A DNA stretch of 64,000 nucleotides, taken from Kocuria subflava. Lineage in GTDB: Bacteria; Actinomycetota; Actinomycetes; Actinomycetales; Micrococcaceae. The stretch is from NCBI RefSeq assembly GCF_012163155.1, contig NZ_JAAVUN010000016.1, forward strand, positions 1-64,000, read 5' to 3'. Below the pieces are notes generated by a model. It saw only the letters and a list, made by a program, of their open reading frames with translations, did not search any database and was not told where the DNA came from. The position numbers and the translations under genes were made by a program. Positions 2,020-11,301 of this stretch are shown piece after piece (positions within the stretch are counted from its first letter, which is position 1; every line of letters begins with the position of its first letter).

Positions 2020-4059
2020 TCAGCGTTCGACTGTGAAGATCGCGCGGTAGAACTCCGCCAACCCATCATGGACACTCAGTGGCAGGACCGCGGCCACGTA
2101 CTGATCCGGGCGGACCACCACCACCGCACCCTCCGCTCTGATGCCTGGAGCCTGGAAGATGCTCTCGTGGGGGTGCTCGGCGTAAACCTTCTCCCAGGTG
2201 TGCAGACCGAACGGCCCGACCTTGGGCTTGAAGATCTGCGGCACCTGGTTGATGTCGATGTCGTGATGCGACCTAGGGTAGATCACGCGGAGGTCGAACA
2301 GGGCGTCCTCGTCGGCGGTGCGGCCGAAGCCTGCGGTGTGGGCCACCACCGGGGAATCGGGAGAGGTGCCCAACCAGTCACCCAGCGCGTGGGCGGCCGG
2401 GGCTGCTGCTGCCAGGTCACGGGATGCCGGATCGGGGGCTTGCGTGGTTGGCGTTGCCGGGTCACCGCCGGCCACGGCACCCTCCGGAGCGGCAACGTTG
2501 GCGGCATCAACCACGGTGGCCCCGGCGTCCAAGGGCTGCTGAGCGGCGTCGGCGAACACGTAGATCCGCCACCGTCCATCGGCCACCGCTTGGTGCCCCA
2601 GGTGTAACGGGTTGCCGTCACTCACGCGGGAAACTTGAGCGGACTTGAAGCGTTTGCCCACCGGGAATCCCGTGGCCAGGCACTGGTGTTCGGTACCGCC
2701 GGTGATCATTGAGGGCTGGTACTCGGTCATGAAGCCGGCCGGGAACTCGGCGGTTTTCACGTAGAAGTCTTCCAAGTAGGACGGGTCCTCCAAGTCCTCG
2801 GGCTTGGTGGCCATCAAGGTGGACCATTCCTTGTCAAAGTCGATCAGGTTCTTGGCGATCACCTGACGCTCACCGGAATAGGTGCGCAACAGGGATTCCG
2901 GGGAGCGGCCCACCACCACGTGCCCCAACTTCCACGCCAGGTTCCAGCCATCTTGCATGGACACGTTCATGCCCTGCCCGGCCTTGGCCGAGTGCGTGTG
3001 ACAGGCATCGCCGGTGATGAAAACCCGTGGTGTCCGGGCATCCGATCCGGAGGGGGTGTCGCCCACGTCGTCGAAAGCGTCGGTGAGCCGGTGACCCACC
3101 TCGTAGACGCTCTTCCACGCCACGCCCTTCACATCCACGGTGTAGGGGGCCATGATCTGGTTGGCGCGCTCGATGATCTGCTCAATGGTGGTGGCCCGAA
3201 CCGCGGCACTGCCTTCCAGCGGCACTTCACCCAGGTCCACGTACATGCGGAACAGGTGACCGCCTTCGCGGGGGATCAGCAGGATGGAACCGCCGGATCG
3301 GGACTGGATGGCGCACTTGGTGCGGATGTCCGGGAAGTCGGTCACGGCCAGCACGTCCATCACGTCCCAGGCGTGGTTGGCCTGATCACCGCTCAGGGTT
3401 CGGCCGATGGATGAGCGCACGCCCGATCGAGCGCCGTTGGCGCCCACCACGTACTTTGCGCGGACCGTGCGTTCCTCGCCGGTGTGGGGGCCGGCCGTGT
3501 GGCGGACGGTCACCTCAACGGGGTGTTCGCCGCGGTTGTGAACCGTCAGGTCCACGAATTCGATGCCGTAGTCCGGAGCCACACGCCCGGGGGAGAGCAT
3601 GGCGAATTCCGCAAAGTAGTCCAAGATGCGGGCCTGATTGACAATCAGATGAGGTAACTCGCTGACACCGTCCGGATCGTCCAGCGTGCGCGCCGCGTGC
3701 ACGATGTGCTCCGGGTCGGTGGGATCCGGCTTCCAAAAGTTCATTTCGGTGATGTGATAGGCCTCGTCAATCAGGCGATTGGCGAATCCAAAGGCCTGAA
3801 AGGTCTCCACGCTGCGGGCCTGAATCCCATCGGCCTGACCGATTTCCAGACGGTGCGGCCGCTTTTCGATGATGCGGGTGTTCACGCCCGGGAACTGGGC
3901 CAGCTGAGCGGCCGTCATCATTCCCGCAGGGCCGGTACCCACGATCAGCACGTCCATGACCTCCGGCAGGTCAGCCGGACGGTCGATCCCGTGGCCGGCG
4001 GCGGGCTGGATCCTGGGATCCGTGGAGACGTAGCCGTGATGGTGGAACTGCATGGTCAT
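2020..4059 (-). CDS. MobA-type FAD-dependent aromatic hydroxylase (3-hydroxybenzoate 4-monooxygenase-like)
   Basis: Class A flavoprotein monooxygenase of the phenol hydroxylase/MobA group, using NAD(P)H and O2 to hydroxylate a phenolic ring. The start at MTMQFHHHGY follows AAGGGGCG and gives 679 residues. Visible motifs are the FAD loop VLIVGTGPAGMM, LGQADGIQARSVE, and the GD motif FITGDACHTHSAKAGQGMN. The C-terminal thioredoxin-like domain ends with VVRPDQYVAAVLPL. The family DG motif is GANGARS here (codon 3436-3438), so the usual Asp is Asn. An Ala/Pro/Thr-rich insert lies at about residues 500-550. Divergence from iclR and linkage to hpa genes suggest it supplies 3,4-dihydroxyphenylacetate from a hydroxyphenylacetate, but 3-hydroxybenzoate is the family's known substrate. 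Activity is unproven. Confidence 0.82.
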   Translation of the reverse strand: MTMQFHHHGYVSTDPRIQPAAGHGIDRPADLPEVMDVLIVGTGPAGMMTAAQLAQFPGVNTRIIEKRPHRLEIGQADGIQARSVETFQAFGFANRLIDEAYHITEMNFWKPDPTDPEHIVHAARTLDDPDGVSELPHLIVNQARILDYFAEFAMLSPGRVAPDYGIEFVDLTVHNRGEHPVEVTVRHTAGPHTGEERTVRAKYVVGANGARSGVRSSIGRTLSGDQANHAWDVMDVLAVTDFPDIRTKCAIQSRSGGSILLIPREGGHLFRMYVDLGEVPLEGSAAVRATTIEQIIERANQIMAPYTVDVKGVAWKSVYEVGHRLTDAFDDVGDTPSGSDARTPRVFITGDACHTHSAKAGQGMNVSMQDGWNLAWKLGHVVVGRSPESLLRTYSGERQVIAKNLIDFDKEWSTLMATKPEDLEDPSYLEDFYVKTAEFPAGFMTEYQPSMITGGTEHQCLATGFPVGKRFKSAQVSRVSDGNPLHLGHQAVADGRWRIYVFADAAQQPLDAGATVVDAANVAAPEGAVAGGDPATPTTQAPDPASRDLAAAAPAAHALGDWLGTSPDSPVVAHTAGFGRTADEDALFDLRVIYPRSHHDIDINQVPQIFKPKVGPFGLHTWEKVYAEHPHESIFQAPGIRAEGAVVVVRPDQYVAAVLPLSVHDGLAEFYRAIFTVER

Positions 4060-4195: not shown

Positions 4196-4927
4196 GTGGA
4201 CGGCATGAAGGCAGGCGGAGGCAAGGCGGTTGTGGGGTCGCAGACACTGAGCCGCGGGATCCAGATTCTGGAGACTCTGGCCACTGCGGGTGGCCCACTG
4301 CGGACCGACGACGTCGCCGCTCACCTTGGCGTTCATCGCTCCGTTGCGTATCGGTTGATTCGTACGCTCGAAGCTCACGGCCTGGTGCAGCGCACGCCCG
4401 CCGGTGGACTGTCATTGGGCTTGGGCCTGGCTGCACTTGCGGCAGGTGTGGAGGTCGATCTGCGGGCCCTGGCAATTCCTGTCCTGCGCTCCAGTGCTGA
4501 GACTCTGGGATTGACGTGCTTCATGGCCATGCAGGACGGCGATGAAGCGGTGACCCTGGCCAGTGTTGAACCCCCGCGTGCCGTGGCGGTTGTGGCGCAG
4601 CGGCCCGGCACTCGGCATTCCCTCACTCGTGGCACCACGGGTCGGGCGATTCTTTCGCTGCTGCAGGACCGTGCGGGGGTTCAGTCCCTTGCGATCCCTG
4701 ATGAGCTAGCCACTCAAATCCAGCAGGTCCGCAGCCGGGGCTGGGCAGAAACCGCCGATGAAGTGATCCCGGGACTGCATGCCGTGGCGGTTCCGATTCA
4801 GCTGCCGGATGGTCGGGCGGCAGCGGTGGCATCACTGTCCGTGGGGGCCGATCAGCGCACTGAACTGCGGGTTCAGGTGTTGCGGGAGGCGGTTATCAAG
4901 CTCCAAGGATCCCTGCAAAAAATGTGA
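4196..4927 (+). CDS. IclR-family transcriptional regulator
   Basis: DNA-binding regulator of about 243 residues. The N-terminal winged helix (about 14-75) contains TDDVAAHLGVHRSVAYRLI, and the C-terminal effector domain (about 85-240) contains the typical RGTTGRAIL segment. The GTG start has GGGAGG five bases upstream; an ATG three codons later is possible. It sits between the divergent hydroxylase and hpaG, so it is probably the specific regulator of this catabolic cluster. Its own upstream region and the hpaG leader share GATCATATACG, a candidate operator. Whether it activates or represses cannot be told from sequence. Confidence 0.88.
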   Translation: MDGMKAGGGKAVVGSQTLSRGIQILETLATAGGPLRTDDVAAHLGVHRSVAYRLIRTLEAHGLVQRTPAGGLSLGLGLAALAAGVEVDLRALAIPVLRSSAETLGLTCFMAMQDGDEAVTLASVEPPRAVAVVAQRPGTRHSLTRGTTGRAILSLLQDRAGVQSLAIPDELATQIQQVRSRGWAETADEVIPGLHAVAVPIQLPDGRAAAVASLSVGADQRTELRVQVLREAVIKLQGSLQKM

Positions 4928-5018: not shown

Positions 5019-6554
5019 ATGGCTGAGACACCGGCACCCGTGACCCCCGGCAAGGTGATTGCGGTTCATGTGGCCTATGAATCCCGCGCCGCACAGCGCG
5101 GCCGCCGTCCTTCCCAGCCGTCCTACTTCTTGAAGACCACCAGCTCCGTGACCGGCTCCCGTTCCGGCGTGGTACGCCCGGAGGGAACCGAGCTGTTGGC
5201 GTTTGAAGGGGAGATTGCCCTGGTGATCGGCACGCCGGCACGTCGCGTCAGCGTGGATCAGGCCTGGAGCCACGTGTCCCACGTGACGGGATCCAATGAC
5301 CTTGGTATTTACGCCTACCGCGCACCGGACAAGGGCTCCAACCTCCGGTCCAAGGGCAGGGACGGCTACACGCCGATTGGCCCGGAACTCATTGACGCTC
5401 GCGCGGTGGAGCCCGAGCAGCTGCGTATCCGCACCTGGGTCAACGGAAGCCTGGTCCAAGAGGACACCACGGGACCGGACCGCCTGATCTTCCCGCTGGC
5501 GCAGTTTGTTGCAGATCTCTCTCAGCACATGACCCTGGAGACCGGTGACGTGATCCTTACGGGGACACCTGCAGGATCCTCGGTGATCGCCCCGGGCGAC
5601 GTCGTGGAGGTGGAAGGGGACGCCCCCGCAGCCAAGGGTGCTCCGAGTTCGGGGCGGCTGGTGACCACTGTTGTGGAAGGTCCCGGCGATTTCGATCCAG
5701 ACATGGGCACGCTTCCGCACGTGGATGACGCCCAGCGGGAGGATGCCTGGGGGTCCCGGCAGGCAGCAGGTCTGGCGGAAGACCCCAACGCGTTGCCGGA
5801 GATCTTGCGTGCCCAGCTCATGGCCGCACCCACCGCGGGGATTTCGGCTCAGTTGCGCAAACGCGGACTCAACCAGGTGGTCATTGAAGGCGTCCACCCA
5901 GCCCTGCCCGGCACCAAGATGGTGGGTGTGGCCAAGACCCTGCGGTTCCTGCCCGGCCGCGAGGACCTGTTCACAACTCACGGCGGTGGCTACAACGCTC
6001 AGAAACGGGCGTTTGAAGCCGTGCGCCCCGGAGAAGTCCTGGTGATCGAGGCCCGCAATGAGCCGGGTTCCGGAACCCTGGGGGACATCTTGGCCCTGCG
6101 TGCCCACCACAACGGTGCTGCCGGGGTGGTCACGGACGGTGGCGTGCGGGACAGCGCGGCCGTCACGGAGATCGGCCTGCCCGTATTTTCTCGGACCAGC
6201 CACCCAGCCGTGCTGGGCCGCAACCACGTCCCGTGGGAGTCGGACATCGCCATTGGCTGCGGCAATACCACCGTGATCCCGGGGGACGTGATCGTGGGCG
6301 ACGACGACGACGGCGTCGTCGTGATTCCGCGGGCACTGGCCCAAGAAGTGGCCGAGGAGGCGTTGACCAAGGATCACGAGGACTCGTGGGTGTTCGACCG
6401 CGTTGCCGAAGGCCACCCGGTGGACAACCTGTTCCCGCCGGCGGGTCAGTGGAAGCAGAAGTTCCAGGAGTGGTTGGCCCAGAACCCGGTACCTGAGCCC
6501 TCAGCGCAGGGAACTCAGGGAGCACAGGGAACACAGTCGGAAGGGCAGGACTGA
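5019..6554 (+). CDS. hpaG: HpaG-like FAH-family decarboxylase/isomerase fused to an RraA-like domain
   Basis: Two-domain enzyme, 511 residues from the ATG after AGAAGAGGCG. Residues about 60-235 form a fumarylacetoacetate-hydrolase fold with metal-binding EGEIALVIG and the NDLGIYAYR...KGRDGYTPIGP segment, as in the 5-oxopent-3-ene-1,2,5-tricarboxylate decarboxylase/HHDD isomerase HpaG. Residues about 275-475 form an RraA/HMG-aldolase-like domain with LGDILALRAHHNGAAGVV and DGGVRDS. The classical enterobacterial HpaG has two FAH domains, so one half is replaced here by a different fold that in other proteins performs retro-aldol or decarboxylation chemistry. The C-terminus is a short Gln/Gly-rich tail. 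It is first in the hpaG-gntR-hpaE-hpaD-hpaH-hpaI series, with one base between its stop and gntR. Confidence 0.85.
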   Translation: MAETPAPVTPGKVIAVHVAYESRAAQRGRRPSQPSYFLKTTSSVTGSRSGVVRPEGTELLAFEGEIALVIGTPARRVSVDQAWSHVSHVTGSNDLGIYAYRAPDKGSNLRSKGRDGYTPIGPELIDARAVEPEQLRIRTWVNGSLVQEDTTGPDRLIFPLAQFVADLSQHMTLETGDVILTGTPAGSSVIAPGDVVEVEGDAPAAKGAPSSGRLVTTVVEGPGDFDPDMGTLPHVDDAQREDAWGSRQAAGLAEDPNALPEILRAQLMAAPTAGISAQLRKRGLNQVVIEGVHPALPGTKMVGVAKTLRFLPGREDLFTTHGGGYNAQKRAFEAVRPGEVLVIEARNEPGSGTLGDILALRAHHNGAAGVVTDGGVRDSAAVTEIGLPVFSRTSHPAVLGRNHVPWESDIAIGCGNTTVIPGDVIVGDDDDGVVVIPRALAQEVAEEALTKDHEDSWVFDRVAEGHPVDNLFPPAGQWKQKFQEWLAQNPVPEPSAQGTQGAQGTQSEGQD

Positions 6555-6555
6555 G

Positions 6556-7251
6556 ATGACCACCGCTGTCTCTGCCTCCGGCACACCTGTACCCGCCGCC
6601 AACCTGAGCAAGGCCCAGACCGCCTATCACTGGATCAAGGAGCGGATCTCCACGCAGGAGTACGCCCCGGGATACCGGCTGGTGTTGAGCACTATCGCCA
6701 CGGATCTTGAGATGAGCGTGGTTCCGGTCCGGGAGGCCATCCGCCAGCTGGAAGCCGAGGGTCTTGTGACGTTCACCCGCAACGTGGGCGCGCACGTGTC
6801 CATGGTGGACGGTTCCCGGTACCGCGCCTCCATGGAAACTCTGGGTGTGCTGGAAGGGGCTGCCACGGCCATGGCCGCGCCGCACATCGATCCTGAAGAT
6901 CTGGAGAAGGCCAGGGAGCTCAATGCACGGATGGAGGCATCCCTGACGGATTTTGATCCCCACACCTTCACGGAAACCAATCACCAGTTCCACCGCGTGC
7001 TCTTCGACCGTTGCCCCAATGAACGCCTCAATGAACTGGTCAACGCCGAGTGGGAACGCCTGGGTCATCTGCGGGACTCCACGTTCACGTTTGTCCCGGA
7101 CCGCGCCCGCGAATCAGTCCAGGAGCACACCCGAATTCTGGAGCTGATCGAATCCGGAGCACCCGCGCACCAGATCGAACAAGCCGCCCGGGAACACCGC
7201 ACCAGCACTTTGCGCAGCTACCTGCAAGCACAGGAGGACAGCCATGACTGA
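6556..7251 (+). CDS. GntR-family (FadR/FCD) regulator
   Basis: 231-residue regulator. It has an N-terminal winged helix (about 20-85: ERISTQEYAPGYRL, then MSVVPVREAIRQLEAEGLV) and a C-terminal all-helical FCD ligand domain (about 95-220) with ETNHQFHRVLF and the EHRTSTLRSYL end helix. The frame is open far upstream into hpaG. The ATG directly after the hpaG stop, preceded by GGAAGGGCAGGA, is the natural start. Its 3' end overlaps hpaE by 8 nt, so the genes are translationally coupled. A second regulator inside the catabolic operon implies feedback control; its ligand is unknown. Confidence 0.9.
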   Translation: MTTAVSASGTPVPAANLSKAQTAYHWIKERISTQEYAPGYRLVLSTIATDLEMSVVPVREAIRQLEAEGLVTFTRNVGAHVSMVDGSRYRASMETLGVLEGAATAMAAPHIDPEDLEKARELNARMEASLTDFDPHTFTETNHQFHRVLFDRCPNERLNELVNAEWERLGHLRDSTFTFVPDRARESVQEHTRILELIESGAPAHQIEQAAREHRTSTLRSYLQAQEDSHD

Positions 7252-8766
7252 GAACAACCGCAGGCCCACCAACGCTCACGCCCGTCCGGACGGTTTGCCG
7301 GAGCGTATCCAGCACTACATCAACGGCCAATTCGTGGATTCCGCCGGTGGCGCCACCTTTGACGTGATCGACCCCGTGACCAATGAGCCCTACATCAAGG
7401 CTGCGGCCGGCCAGAAGGAAGACATCGACGACGCGGTGGCCACGGCCCAACTGGCATTCCAGGAAGGGCCCTGGCCCAAATGCTGCCGCGGGAGCGCTCC
7501 CGTGTGCTGAACAAGATCGCGGACATCGTGGAGTCCAGGGAGCAGCGCTTGGCGGAGATGGAGTCCTACGACTCCGGGCTGCCCATCAAGCAGGCCCTGG
7601 GCCAGGCTCGCCGTGCTGCGGAGAACTTCCGGTTCTTTGCAGATTTGATCGTGGCTCAGATCGACGAGGCTTACAAGGTGCCCGGCCGTCAGGCCAACTA
7701 CGTCAACCGCAAGCCGATCGGTGTGGCCGGGCTGATCACGCCTTGGAACACCCCGTTCATGCTGGAGTCCTGGAAGTTGGCACCGGCCATTGCCACGGGC
7801 AACACCGTGGTACTCAAACCGGCCGAGTTCACACCGCTCTCCGCCTCCCTGTGGGCCGGGATCTTTGAGGAGGCCGGGCTGCCCCAAGGTGTGTTCAACC
7901 TGGTCAACGGCTTTGGCGAGGAGGCAGGGGATGCCTTGGTCAAGCACCCGGACGTCCCCCTGATCTCCTTCACAGGAGAGTCCGGGACCAGGCAGCTCAT
8001 TTTCGGCAATGCAGCACCCTTCCTCAAGGGGCTGTCCATGGAGTTGGGTGGCAAGTCGCCCGCCGTCGTTTTTGCCGATGCCGATCTGGAAGCAGCCATT
8101 GATGCCACCATCTTTGGTGTGTTCTCCCTCAACGGCGAACGCTTCACGGCCGGGTCCCGCATCCTGGTCCAGCGAGAGATCCATGACGAGTTCGTGCAGC
8201 GTTATGCGGCCCAGGCCCAGCGGGTCAAGGTTGGTCTGCCCTCGGATCCCACCACGGAGGTCGGTGCGCTGGTGCACCCGGAGCACTTCCAGAAGGTGAT
8301 GTCTTACGTGGAACTCGGCAAGTCGGAGGGACGCCTGGTGGCTGGTGGCGGACGTCCTGAAGGGTTCCCTGAAGGCAATTTTGTCCAGCCCACGGTGTTC
8401 GTGGACGTGGCAGCCGATGCCCGGATCTTCCAGGAGGAGACCTTTGGTCCGGTGGTGGCCATCACCCCGTTCGACACGGAGGACGAGGCCCTGGAGCTGG
8501 CCAACAACACCAAGTACGGTCTGGCCGACTACATCTGGACCAATGACCTGAAGCGAGCCCACAACTTTGCCCAGAACGTGGAGGCCGGCATGGTCTGGCT
8601 GAACTCCAACAACGTTCGTGACCTCCGCACCCCCTTCGGCGGCGTGAAGGCCTCCGGTCTGGGCCATGAAGGCGGTTACCGGTCCATCGACTTCTACACG
8701 GACCAACAAGCCGTGCACATCAATCTGGGTGAGGGCCACAACCCCGTGTTCGGGCGCCAGGCCTGA
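7244..8766 (+). pseudogene. hpaE: hpaE, 5-carboxymethyl-2-hydroxymuconate semialdehyde dehydrogenase, frameshifted and lacking the catalytic Cys
   Basis: NAD-dependent aldehyde dehydrogenase of the homoprotocatechuate pathway. Translation starts after AGGAGG with MTENNRRPTNAHARP. It stays in frame to GPWPK, then shifts at an A run (7478-7480): one missing A would restore PKMLPRERSRVLNKI in the downstream frame, which runs to 8766. Family motifs are present downstream (SPW/TPWNTPFM, MELGGKSPAVVF, FGPVVAITPF, TPFGGVKASGLG). The active-site motif reads FSLNGERFTAGSR, where the family has Cys (GERCTAGSR). The Phe codon is TTC at 8143-8145. The order of residues in SFTGESGTRQ also differs from the usual NAD-site wording. 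The frameshift alone could be a sequencing error, but with loss of the nucleophile a dead gene is more likely. Confidence 0.85.
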
Positions 8767-8813: not shown

Positions 8814-9938
8814 ATGACTGGGAACACCGCACCCCATCAGAGCCACAACACCATTCCCACGCCCACAGTGGCCCCGCCGGACATTCTGCGCTGTGCCTAC
8901 ATGGAGCTGGTGGTCACGGATCTGGCGCGCTCGCGTGACTTCTACGTGAATGTTCTGGACCTGGTGGTCACGGAGGAGGACGACCATGCCGTCTACCTGC
9001 GTTCCATGGAGGAGTTCATCCACCACAACTTGGTGCTGCGCCAGGGGGAGCAGGCCGCGGTGGCCGCGTTCTCTTACCGGGTCCGCAGCCCAGAGGAACT
9101 GGACCGCGCCGTGGAGTTCTACCAAGAGCTCGGGTGCCGCGTGGAACGCCGAACCGAAGGCTTCACCAAAGGCATCGGGTATTCGGTGCGGGTCCAGGAT
9201 CCGTTAGGATTCCCGTACGAATTCTTCTACGACGTCCAACACGTTGACCGCCTGGCCTGGCGTTATGACCTATACACCCCGGGTTCCCTGGTGCGCCTGG
9301 ATCACTTCAATCAGGTCACCCCGGACGTGCCCAAGGCCGTGAAGTACATGGAGGATTTAGGCTTCCGGGTCACGGAGGACATCCAGGATGAGGCCGGTAC
9401 CACCTACGCCGCGTGGATGCGTCGCAAGCCCACCGTTCACGACACCGCAATGACCGGCGGCGATGGTCCCCGGATGCATCACGTGGCTTTTGCCACGCAC
9501 GAAAAGCACAAGATCTTGGCCATCTGCGACAAACTCGGTGCCCTGCGGATGTCAGACAGGATCGAGCGCGGGCCGGGCCGCCACGGTGTCTCCAACGCTT
9601 TTTATCTCGACCTGCGTGATCCTGACGGACACCGTGTGGAGATCTACACTCAGGACTACTACACCTGGGATCCGGACAACCCCGTGGTGACCTGGGACGT
9701 TCGTGACAACCAGCGCCGGGACTGGTGGGGCAACCCCGTGGTTCCGTCCTGGTACACGGAGGCCTCCACCGTCCTTAACCTGGACGGCAATCCGTTTCCG
9801 TTGGTCTCCCGCACCGATGACTCGGAGATGGAGGTGACCATCGGCGCCGATGGTTCCTCCTACACCCGCCCCGAGGAGGGGCAGGACTCCATGCCCGAGT
9901 GGAAACAGGGGGAGTACAAGCTGGGTCACCAGCTCTGA
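8814..9938 (+). CDS. hpaD: 3,4-Dihydroxyphenylacetate 2,3-dioxygenase
   Basis: Extradiol ring-cleavage dioxygenase that opens homoprotocatechuate. It consists of two glyoxalase-like repeats (about residues 25-150 and 160-300). The three metal ligands expected from the Brevibacterium/Arthrobacter HPCD/MndD enzymes are all visible: His in VRLDHFNQVTPDV, His in RMHHVAFAT, and Glu in HRVEIYTQDY. The C-terminal WWGNPVVPSWYTEAS segment is also typical. At 374 residues it is full length with a slightly longer N-terminus. AAGGACGC precedes the ATG. Whether it uses Mn or Fe cannot be told. It appears intact although the flanking hpaE and hpaH are broken. Confidence 0.95.
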   Translation: MTGNTAPHQSHNTIPTPTVAPPDILRCAYMELVVTDLARSRDFYVNVLDLVVTEEDDHAVYLRSMEEFIHHNLVLRQGEQAAVAAFSYRVRSPEELDRAVEFYQELGCRVERRTEGFTKGIGYSVRVQDPLGFPYEFFYDVQHVDRLAWRYDLYTPGSLVRLDHFNQVTPDVPKAVKYMEDLGFRVTEDIQDEAGTTYAAWMRRKPTVHDTAMTGGDGPRMHHVAFATHEKHKILAICDKLGALRMSDRIERGPGRHGVSNAFYLDLRDPDGHRVEIYTQDYYTWDPDNPVVTWDVRDNQRRDWWGNPVVPSWYTEASTVLNLDGNPFPLVSRTDDSEMEVTIGADGSSYTRPEEGQDSMPEWKQGEYKLGHQL

Positions 9939-10016: not shown

Positions 10017-10522
10017 ATGCTTGAGACCAGCACCATCAGAACGTGCGAATCGAGGTGGCGCTGGCCTTTGTGCTGAGTCAGGACCTCAAAGGCCCAGACG
10101 TGCCGGTCTTTGACGTCCTCAAGGCCACTGAGCACGTGGTGCCGGCGCTGGAGGTGGTCTCCTCCCGGATTGAGATGAAGGGGCGGACCATCGTGAACAC
10201 CATCGCTGACAATGCGGCTCTGGGTGCCATGGTGCTGGGTGGCCGGCCGGTGGCTGTTGATGCCCTTGATCTGCGGTGGGTCTCGGCCTTGTTGTACCGC
10301 AACCAGACCATCGAGGAATCCGGGGTGGCTGCCGCAGTGCTGAACCACCCGGCCGCCGGTGTGGTGTGGTTGGCCAACAAGCTGGCTGCCCACGGGGATC
10401 ACCTCAAGGCGGGGGAGATCATCCTGGCCGGCTTCTTCACCCGACCCATGTGGGTTGACCCCGGGGACACCGTGCACGCCGATTACAGAGAGCTGGGGTC
10501 CATCACATGCCGGTTCGTTTAG
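10017..10522 (+). pseudogene. hpaH: hpaH, 2-oxo-hept-3-ene-1,7-dioate hydratase, internal deletion
   Basis: The start region survives: CCAGGAGCGCAC then ATG, encoding MLETSTI, a typical HpaH N-terminus. After about 7 codons the sequence jumps, out of frame, to RIEVALAFVLSQDLKGPD, which corresponds to about residue 104 of the 267-residue E. coli HpaH. About 280 bp are therefore missing, and translation from the ATG would stop after 19 codons. The remaining C-terminal part (open from a GTG at 10043) is well conserved to the CRFV end. The family RIEVEL metal-ligand pair reads RIEVAL, so the second Glu (Glu108 in E. coli numbering) is Ala. The stop overlaps the hpaI start by 16 nt. This break cannot be explained by a single base error. 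Confidence 0.88.
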
Positions 10523-11301
10523 AACTCCCTCCCACGTTCGCCGATCGCCTGGCACGTGCTCAGCGCCCCTTGGTGGGTTCCTGGGTGTGCTCCGGCTCGC
10601 CCGTGGCTGCGGAGATCGCGGCTGGTTCCGGGATGGACTGGCTGCTGATCGATGGCGAACACTCACCGATCGGACTGGAAACCACGGCCTCGTTGTTGCG
10701 AGCGGCAGCGGCCTATCCTGCCACGGCCGTGGTGCGGGTACCGTCCGTGGACACCGTGCTGATTAAACAGGTCTTGGATGCGGGTGCCCAGAACATCATG
10801 GTTTCCATGGTGGACACCCCCGAACTGGCGGAGCAGGCGGCGGCAGCCATGTTCTGTCCCCCGCGTGGAGGGCGCGGGATCGGTAGTGCCCTGGCACGCT
10901 CGGCCCGGTGGAACGGGGTTCCCGACTACCTACACCGTGCCCACGAGCTGGTCCGCTTGACCGTACAGATTGAGTCCGCCACCGCCGTCGAACATGCTGC
11001 TGACATCGCAGCCGTGGAGGGTGTGGACGCAGTGTTCGTGGGGCCCTCTGACCGTGCCGCGTCCATGGGGTTGATCGGGCAGCAAACTCACCCGGATCTT
11101 CTGGAGGCCGTGGCCCACGTGTACCGGGAGGTGCATCCCACCGGCACCAAGATATGCGTCAATGCATTCGACTCCACCCAAGCCCAGCAGTACGTGGACG
11201 ACGGATTCGACTACCTTGCTGTGACCTCCGACGTCACGCTCATGGCCCAGGGCACCCGCGCGCTCGCGGACCAGTGGTCAACCCAGCTCCGGGAGGGCTG
11301 A
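10507..11301 (+). CDS. hpaI: 4-Hydroxy-2-oxoheptanedioate aldolase
   Basis: Class II pyruvate aldolase (HpcH/HpaI family) that splits 4-hydroxy-2-oxoheptanedioate into pyruvate and succinate semialdehyde. Visible sites: catalytic His in LLIDGEHSP, Arg in VVRVP, metal Glu in VQIESATA, metal Asp in VGPSD, and PPRGGRGIGSALARSARWN. Full length at 264 residues, starting inside the 3' end of hpaH. Three positions depart from the usual family wording: NIMVSMVDT (usually LVPMV), VGPSDRAASMG (usually an L after the Asp), and VTSDVTLMA (usually VG-x-D). This fits relaxed selection, but all catalytic residues remain, so it may still work. Confidence 0.88.
   Translation: MPVRLELPPTFADRLARAQRPLVGSWVCSGSPVAAEIAAGSGMDWLLIDGEHSPIGLETTASLLRAAAAYPATAVVRVPSVDTVLIKQVLDAGAQNIMVSMVDTPELAEQAAAAMFCPPRGGRGIGSALARSARWNGVPDYLHRAHELVRLTVQIESATAVEHAADIAAVEGVDAVFVGPSDRAASMGLIGQQTHPDLLEAVAHVYREVHPTGTKICVNAFDSTQAQQYVDDGFDYLAVTSDVTLMAQGTRALADQWSTQLREG

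Follow-up and report, generated by a model that had tools for sequence, protein, structure and literature searches.

The window analysed here, a 64,000-nucleotide stretch of a Kocuria subflava contig, carries at positions 5019 to 6554 of the forward strand a gene that joins a fumarylacetoacetate hydrolase (FAH) domain to an RraA-like domain in one protein of 511 amino acids. The frame is intact, with no stop across the 511 residues, and the enclosing open frame starts further 5′, with an ATG at 4779. The FAH domain spans residues 13 to 218 (5055 to 5672, forward strand; Pfam FAA_hydrolase, E = 7.1e-46) and the RraA-like domain residues 272 to 435 (5832 to 6323, forward strand; Pfam, E = 1.2e-30). 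These were the only families that matched the protein at E 0.001; PF02962, the HpaF (CHMI) family, was not found in it. The RraA half passed both the gathering score of PF03737 (107.2 bits, cut-off 24.5) and the RraA-like subfamily model NF006093 (216.9 bits, cut-off 208), and the whole length passed NF009399 (PRK12764), an equivalog model named 'fumarylacetoacetate hydrolase family protein', scoring 787.7 bits where the cut-off is 444. The fusion is a real and conserved protein that is already catalogued under NF009399 but has no functional name. Within the open-licence PMC literature we found no paper on PRK12764, which does not imply its absence from print, and none that treats RraA together with HpaG or fumarylacetoacetate hydrolase.

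Upstream of the fusion gene lie a phenol 2-monooxygenase-like FAD hydroxylase that is a candidate for the first pathway step (2020 to 4053, reverse strand; NF006144, 965.1 bits, cut-off 560) and an IclR-type regulator (4196 to 4927, forward strand) whose best matches, to the BhcR and PcaR/PcaU models, fell below cut-off. Directly 3′ of the fusion gene, and on the same strand as all the genes that follow, is a GntR-type regulator (6556 to 7251, forward strand; start chosen by eye). It is followed by hpaE, encoding a CHMS dehydrogenase (7244 to 8766; TIGR02299, 578.3 bits, below the cut-off of 638.35), which is split over two frames (7271 to 7486 and 7474 to 8760) with a break near 7474 to 7486 that may reflect either a decaying operon or an assembly error. 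The hpaD gene, for a 3,4-dihydroxyphenylacetate 2,3-dioxygenase, is intact (8814 to 9938; TIGR02295, 421.5 bits, cut-off 321.4). What remains of hpaH (10037 to 10522) covers residues 101 to 261 of 261; the first 100 residues had no match at this locus, the start-like ATG that remains at 10017 does not share the reading frame of what follows, and the gene looks like the product of an internal deletion. The run ends with an hpaI gene of the 4-hydroxy-2-oxoheptanedioate aldolase type (10507 to 11301; TIGR02311, 246.9 bits, below the cut-off of 368.8). Given the frame break in hpaE and the missing start of HpaH, the pathway is probably incomplete in this genome, or else the assembly is wrong at two places.

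No second fusion was found in the Kocuria subflava genome, where another match (L002) is 40% identical to the FAH part and was placed in another FAH clade. In both of our quick trees the Kocuria fusion groups with two Corynebacterium copies (support 99), and L025, the sole other copy from the family of Kocuria in the RraA tree, is placed elsewhere. From this grouping, the Kocuria gene may have been acquired by transfer.

Distribution and operon context of the fusion

A survey across actinobacteria, which the earlier note had proposed, found NF009399 above cut-off in 80 of the 297 genomes of the order Actinomycetales and in 8 of the 396 genomes of a phylum sample, counts that rule out a chance or assembly artefact. 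Some NF009399 match at E 1e-60 was present in 94 of the 297 order genomes, and at E 1e-80 the phylum sample yielded 9, one of them a match to RraA only. A scan of named genomes, limited to the 80 best out of at least 589 relatives, gave 45 fusion loci; 44 of the 45 are actinobacterial by name, and the carriers include Corynebacterium, Microbacterium, Arthrobacter, Rhodococcus and Amycolatopsis. Two genome collections were used, and the loci may include the same species in both. According to PMC3534580, Arthrobacter sp. Rue61a grows on 4-hydroxyphenylacetate and homoprotocatechuate. Four plasmid records contained the fusion at E 1e-60, among them one (H3) from the environmental strain Paenarthrobacter aurescens TC1. 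One plasmid copy, annotated 'putative Dimethylmenaquinone methyltransferase', has hpaE, a hydratase and an HpaI-like aldolase as neighbours; another, annotated 'fumarylacetoacetate hydrolase family protein', lies next to hpaE, hpaD and hpaH. The one named locus without an actinobacterial name (L077) comes from a 5.4-kb contig under the label Stenotrophomonas maltophilia; the RraA row of this copy falls among the actinobacteria, which points to contamination or transfer. At L133 (9169 to 10652; genome G679) the two halves of the fusion are in different open frames of an otherwise full hpa operon.

We took a census of the operon genes at the 45 named loci, using bit thresholds of our own setting. 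GntR was present at 44 of these loci drawn from the best 80 matches, HpaD at 43, HpaE at 41, HpaH at 29, HpaI and a monooxygenase each at 26, a DapA-type aldolase at 10 and HpaF at none. Either HpaH together with HpaI or a DapA-type aldolase occurred at 36 of the 45, and neither at 9, of which L058, L064, L073 and L074 cover 10 kb on each side and the other five are shorter. The full order fusion-GntR-HpaE-HpaD-HpaH-HpaI was found at 22 loci, where the gaps between homology matches did not exceed 177 nt (exceptions: 241 nt in L054 and 357 nt in L082; short HpaH frame). Gaps that small leave no room in full-order loci for a separate hpaF, which takes about 375 nt, and four small open reading frames from the operon clusters gave no family match. 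The fusion occupies the place of HpaG in a conserved homoprotocatechuate (hpa) operon.

HpaF was also sought beyond the operons. PF02962 matched none of 45 carrier genomes (Kocuria and those of 44 of the 45 named loci, the genome of L042 being left out), a search in which the controls were silent too and for which the positive control was a separate search of 24 genomes. In that control 9 of the 24 genomes matched, at 104 to 176 bits, and all 9 hold a two-FAH HpaG locus; none of the three other comparison genomes and none of the 12 related actinobacterial genomes did so. The control covered the genomes of 9 of the 13 two-FAH HpaG loci, leaving out L099, L102, L105 and L108, and HpaF was present within the loci L099, L105 and L108 themselves and absent from the 9-kb locus L102. 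Weak PF02962 matches (34 to 50 bits) occurred in 2 of the 297 order genomes, both of them fusion carriers, on contigs other than that of the fusion; the phylum sample gave 8 of 396, none above 43.6 bits. Since the contrast in HpaF follows phylogeny, we read it to mean that the actinobacterial pathway runs without PF02962, not that the fusion caused a loss.

Published accounts bear on this point. In the main text of PMC2830990 the Corynebacterium aurimucosum cluster is given as hpaGLEDHI-gabD2, HpaG is taken as the OPET decarboxylase, the hpaF function is placed elsewhere (cauri_0890), and RraA does not appear. CHM also isomerises spontaneously, according to PMC12718150; PMC7356986 concerns another pathway. 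A non-homologous tautomerase elsewhere in the carrier genomes may serve as the isomerase.

Relatives of the two domains

We compared each half of the fusion with its relatives. An AlphaFold2 model built with 22 fusion sequences reached a mean pLDDT of 83.1 and a pTM of 0.65, and Foldseek matched its FAH part to the HpcE-type structures 1wzo and 1i7o and its RraA part to 5x15 (Streptomyces coelicolor RraAS2), 3k4i and 3noj (an HMG/CHA aldolase), 5x15 being the closest solved sequence to the RraA half.

The earlier note had described the gene as HpaG with one FAH half exchanged for RraA. The FAH-plus-RraA architecture stands, on the Pfam matches, but the FAH domain could not be placed as either HpaG half. 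It missed the cut-offs of the HpaG/HpcE models (TIGR02303, 144.5 against 276.4 bits; TIGR02305, 94.7 against 228.65; NF011750, 127.1 against 811), and in a quick FAH tree of 75 rows, with SH-aLRT support only, the fusion FAHs fell outside both the clade of HpaG C-halves (99) and that of N-halves (96). Identity was 32 to 40% to the C-halves and 28 to 33% to the N-halves. We therefore rejected the idea of a surviving HpaG half on this quick, not final, tree. A position in neither clade gives the fusion the look of a non-orthologous replacement of the whole enzyme.

The FAH domain nevertheless keeps the Glu-Glu-Asp site of one HpaG half. Alignment to the C-terminal half of HpcE and a triad census marked Glu63, Glu65 and Asp94 as putative metal ligands: the triad is present in 82 of 83 fusion rows (the remaining row is gapped, and the 83 rows count one locus twice, L010 being L145, and hold 82 distinct FAH sequences), in 13 of 13 C-halves and in 0 of 12 N-halves. 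In PMC12718150 the C-half of HpcE, with its Glu/Asp metal triad, is the OPET decarboxylase and the N-half the HHDD isomerase, an assignment based on structure alone. With the triad in place, a decarboxylase site is not obviously lost from the fusion FAH.

FAHs without RraA branch as sister to those of the fusion in this quick tree. At 14 sister loci (12 tree rows plus L141 and L143, close relatives from outside the tree) an HpaE-like dehydrogenase, 37 to 47% identical to HpaE, lay within 2 kb of the FAH in 10, and RraA was found in none, though L086, L087 and L093 are short or cut. One row, L085, falls among the fusion FAHs with no RraA seen, and its locus stops at the contig end. Another locus, L090 (5958 to 12265), has a single FAH of the sister group in a row with HpaE-like, HpaI-like and HpaH-like genes and no RraA, together with genes that we read by eye as a flavin hydroxylase and a dioxygenase. 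In a Pseudomonas locus (L095, 6685 to 13991) RraA and FAH are separate genes by Pfam, beside a weakly HpaE-like gene (27%) and neighbours read by eye as a flavin hydroxylase, a dioxygenase and a cupin.

The RraA domain is also conserved at its own site. The DGGVRDS and GD motifs named in the earlier note are present and together form D356-X20-R377-D378, whose three residues are found in 83 of 83 fusion rows. D-X20-R-D also occurs in all 8 solo RraA rows (one locus counted twice), the spacing of 20 holds in 94 of 94 rows when solo and outgroup rows are included, and alignment makes the pattern readable in 3noj and 5x15. We take it to be the site of the class II pyruvate aldolases. Models with a defined function did not claim the domain: it missed the HMG/CHA aldolase cut-offs (NF006731, 90.6 against 179 bits; TIGR02798, 83.7 against 304.5) and that of the RNase E regulator RraA (NF006875, 46 against 136). 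That decarboxylases exist within the RraA fold, as the earlier note had stated, is borne out by two papers: HMG/CHA aldolase acts on oxaloacetate as a decarboxylase and also promotes proton exchange in pyruvate, i.e., enolises it (PMC5065237), and FlDet, of the RraA family, is a dehydratase/decarboxylase of a 2-keto-3-deoxy-hexarate (PMC8563752), a chemistry that would resemble OPET decarboxylation. Proton exchange and decarboxylation by the aldolase, together with FlDet, keep both an isomerase and a decarboxylase reading of RraA chemically open. The phrase 'unrelated chemistry' in the earlier note was too strong, since pyruvate is bound together with a metal in solved structures of either fold (3noj, as described in PMC5065237, and the FAH-fold entry 6j5y, by its title); metal-bound pyruvate in both suggests an unrelated fold with similar chemistry.

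RraA relatives 51 to 63% identical to that of Kocuria, with no fusion-type FAH, occur at seven loci (L132, L134 to L138 and L146). HpaD is present at 6 of the 7, HpaI at 6, HpaH at 5 and a DapA-type aldolase at 1. Four of them (L134, L135, L136 and L146) are short HpaD-RraA-HpaH-HpaI operons with divergent GntR and LysR-like genes; in these and in L137 we found neither a linked dehydrogenase nor a fusion-type FAH, and in L137 no HpaH. Operons of the L134 type could possibly serve a meta-cleavage route of their own. In L132 (4445 to 7891) a dienelactone-hydrolase-family gene, RraA, a DapA-type aldolase and HpaD stand in a row without FAH, and a dehydrogenase-like gene 2.9 kb beyond HpaD reaches 529.8 bits where TIGR02299 requires 638.35. 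L138 includes a generic FAH at a distance of 5 kb, and the genome from which it comes (G562) carries a fusion as well, with HpaE beside it. An apparent RraA-FAH gene pair in reverse order at L011 was rejected, the neighbour being a DapA-type aldolase. In a quick RraA tree, where long outgroup branches meet and on which the nesting of the solo RraAs rests, 6 of the 7 loci fall inside the fusion clade (fork 99) and one at its base.

HpaE above cut-off was found in none of the seven genomes that have an RraA match only (six f82 genomes, including G628, and G109; G628 is not among the loci, and G615, at 38%, served as outgroup) and in 4 of the 5 other genomes searched, the exception being the broken copy of Kocuria. 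Seen by locus, the genomes of six of the seven RraA-only loci are without HpaE above cut-off. FAH and HpaE thus seem to go together while RraA stays.

Proposed assignment of steps to the two domains

HpaE creates the carboxylate that later leaves as CO2. Many actinobacteria appear to digest the aromatic acid 4-hydroxyphenylacetate through the FAH-RraA fusion, in place of the different two-part enzyme and separate isomerase on which other bacteria rely. Judged by its sequence and operon place, the fusion looks like a stand-in, not orthologous to HpaG, that fills the place of HpaG when actinobacteria degrade homoprotocatechuate by meta-cleavage, and it probably stands in for HpaF too. We infer that the fusion would take the CHM formed by HpaE on to the C7 diacid hydrated by HpaH, with release of CO2. 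The FAH domain, with a metal at Glu63, Glu65 and Asp94, would decarboxylate the tri-acid and so remove the HpaE-made carboxylate; the RraA domain would bind the pyruvyl or enol end at D356, R377 and D378 and move protons, from CHM to OPET, from HHDD to OHED, or both. To this assignment, FAH as decarboxylase and RraA as isomerase, we give a probability of roughly 0.42.

The same evidence has to be weighed against a close rival, in which RraA decarboxylates OPET at a metal-bound pyruvyl site and FAH isomerises. This is in essence what the earlier note proposed for RraA, and we regard it as plausible without holding it likely. The invariant D-X20-R-D of fusion and solo rows fits it, as do the oxaloacetate decarboxylation by class II RraA-fold aldolases and the existence of FlDet, a decarboxylase from the RraA family itself; moreover, the literature that we examined reports no isomerase or tautomerase function for any RraA-family protein, which counts against RraA as isomerase. 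Six of the seven RraA-only loci form one run with HpaD and no fusion-type FAH, and in runs of the form HpaD-RraA-HpaH-HpaI the RraA protein is the natural candidate for a decarboxylase, if decarboxylation is needed there; it would take that role if these operons cleave vicinal triols, where the acid is formed directly. Both sites are kept in the fusion, which stands in the HpaG place of the operon. Against this reading, the FAH domain retains the triad of the very HpaG half to which decarboxylation is assigned, it is FAH that is missing where no HpaE was found, and the sister FAHs lie near dehydrogenases at loci where no RraA was seen. That FAH tracks HpaE, the maker of the lost carboxylate, favours FAH as the decarboxylase. 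In addition, the functions not found in the carriers, HpaF and an FAH of the HpaG N-half type, are isomerases, which makes RraA as isomerase at least as likely as RraA as decarboxylase.

Two other explanations leave RraA with a smaller share. FAH might carry out all steps, with RraA lending it structural or regulatory support, in part the role that the N-half of HpaG has towards the C-half. PMC12718150 offers a precedent: Acinetobacter OPETD and HHDDI must form a complex for efficient decarboxylation, neither decarboxylating well alone (in A. baumannii OPETD works well only when complexed with HHDDI), and CHMI speeds the process. FAH relatives do occur without RraA in dehydrogenase loci, and 5x15, by its title, belongs to a family of RNase ES inhibitors. 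Yet a domain with a purely structural role would not be expected to keep D356, R377 and D378 in every fusion row, and RraA relatives occur in HpaD runs that have no fusion-type FAH to pair with; we consider this explanation unlikely. Slighter still are the chances that RraA has a side job, such as splitting the final intermediate by a retro-aldol reaction or decarboxylating oxaloacetate, and that co-expression is the sole reason for the fusion. The fold includes aldolases (PMC5065237), and nine named loci show neither HpaH plus HpaI nor a DapA-type aldolase, but the other 36 already possess such genes and the aldolase models score far below cut-off.

Returning to our favoured assignment, we tentatively suggest, at odds below even, that the fusion leads from CHM to the substrate of the hydratase within a single protein and dispenses with HpaF, RraA being an isomerase or tautomerase of hydroxymuconate-type acids. 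If so, a reaction that needs the cooperation of CHMI, OPETD and HHDDI in Acinetobacter would be carried by a single chain with two unrelated folds, and the known functions of the RraA fold could widen. Breakdown of 4-hydroxyphenylacetate is a textbook case of meta-cleavage, yet in many actinobacteria its middle steps would use a non-homologous two-fold enzyme, which makes the fusion a clean test of whether one decarboxylation is served by unrelated folds. Pathway calls that seek HpaF and a two-FAH HpaG report the route as incomplete; the fusion would correct them.

Comparison with known systems

Several known proteins resemble the fusion in part. NF009399/PRK12764 is like it in full-length architecture, with no difference seen. 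The HMG/CHA aldolases (LigK/PcmE type, 3noj) share the fold of its RraA half and D-X20-R-D, yet the fusion scores far below their models; RraA (NF006875) and RraAS2 (5x15) also share the fold, and the fusion differs from them by its NF006875 score and its catabolic gene context. FlDet is likened to it by the description in PMC8563752, not by sequence. Carrier genomes differ from those with a two-FAH HpaG in HpaF, which was found in all 9 of the latter that were searched and in none of the 45 former. With the bilobed HpaG/HpcE (1gtt) the fusion has in common its operon place and an FAH fold with the C-half Glu-Glu-Asp site, but where HpaG/HpcE has two FAH domains the fusion has one, with RraA in the place of the second. 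On this comparison the fusion looks like a known enzyme of a known pathway in a non-orthologous form.
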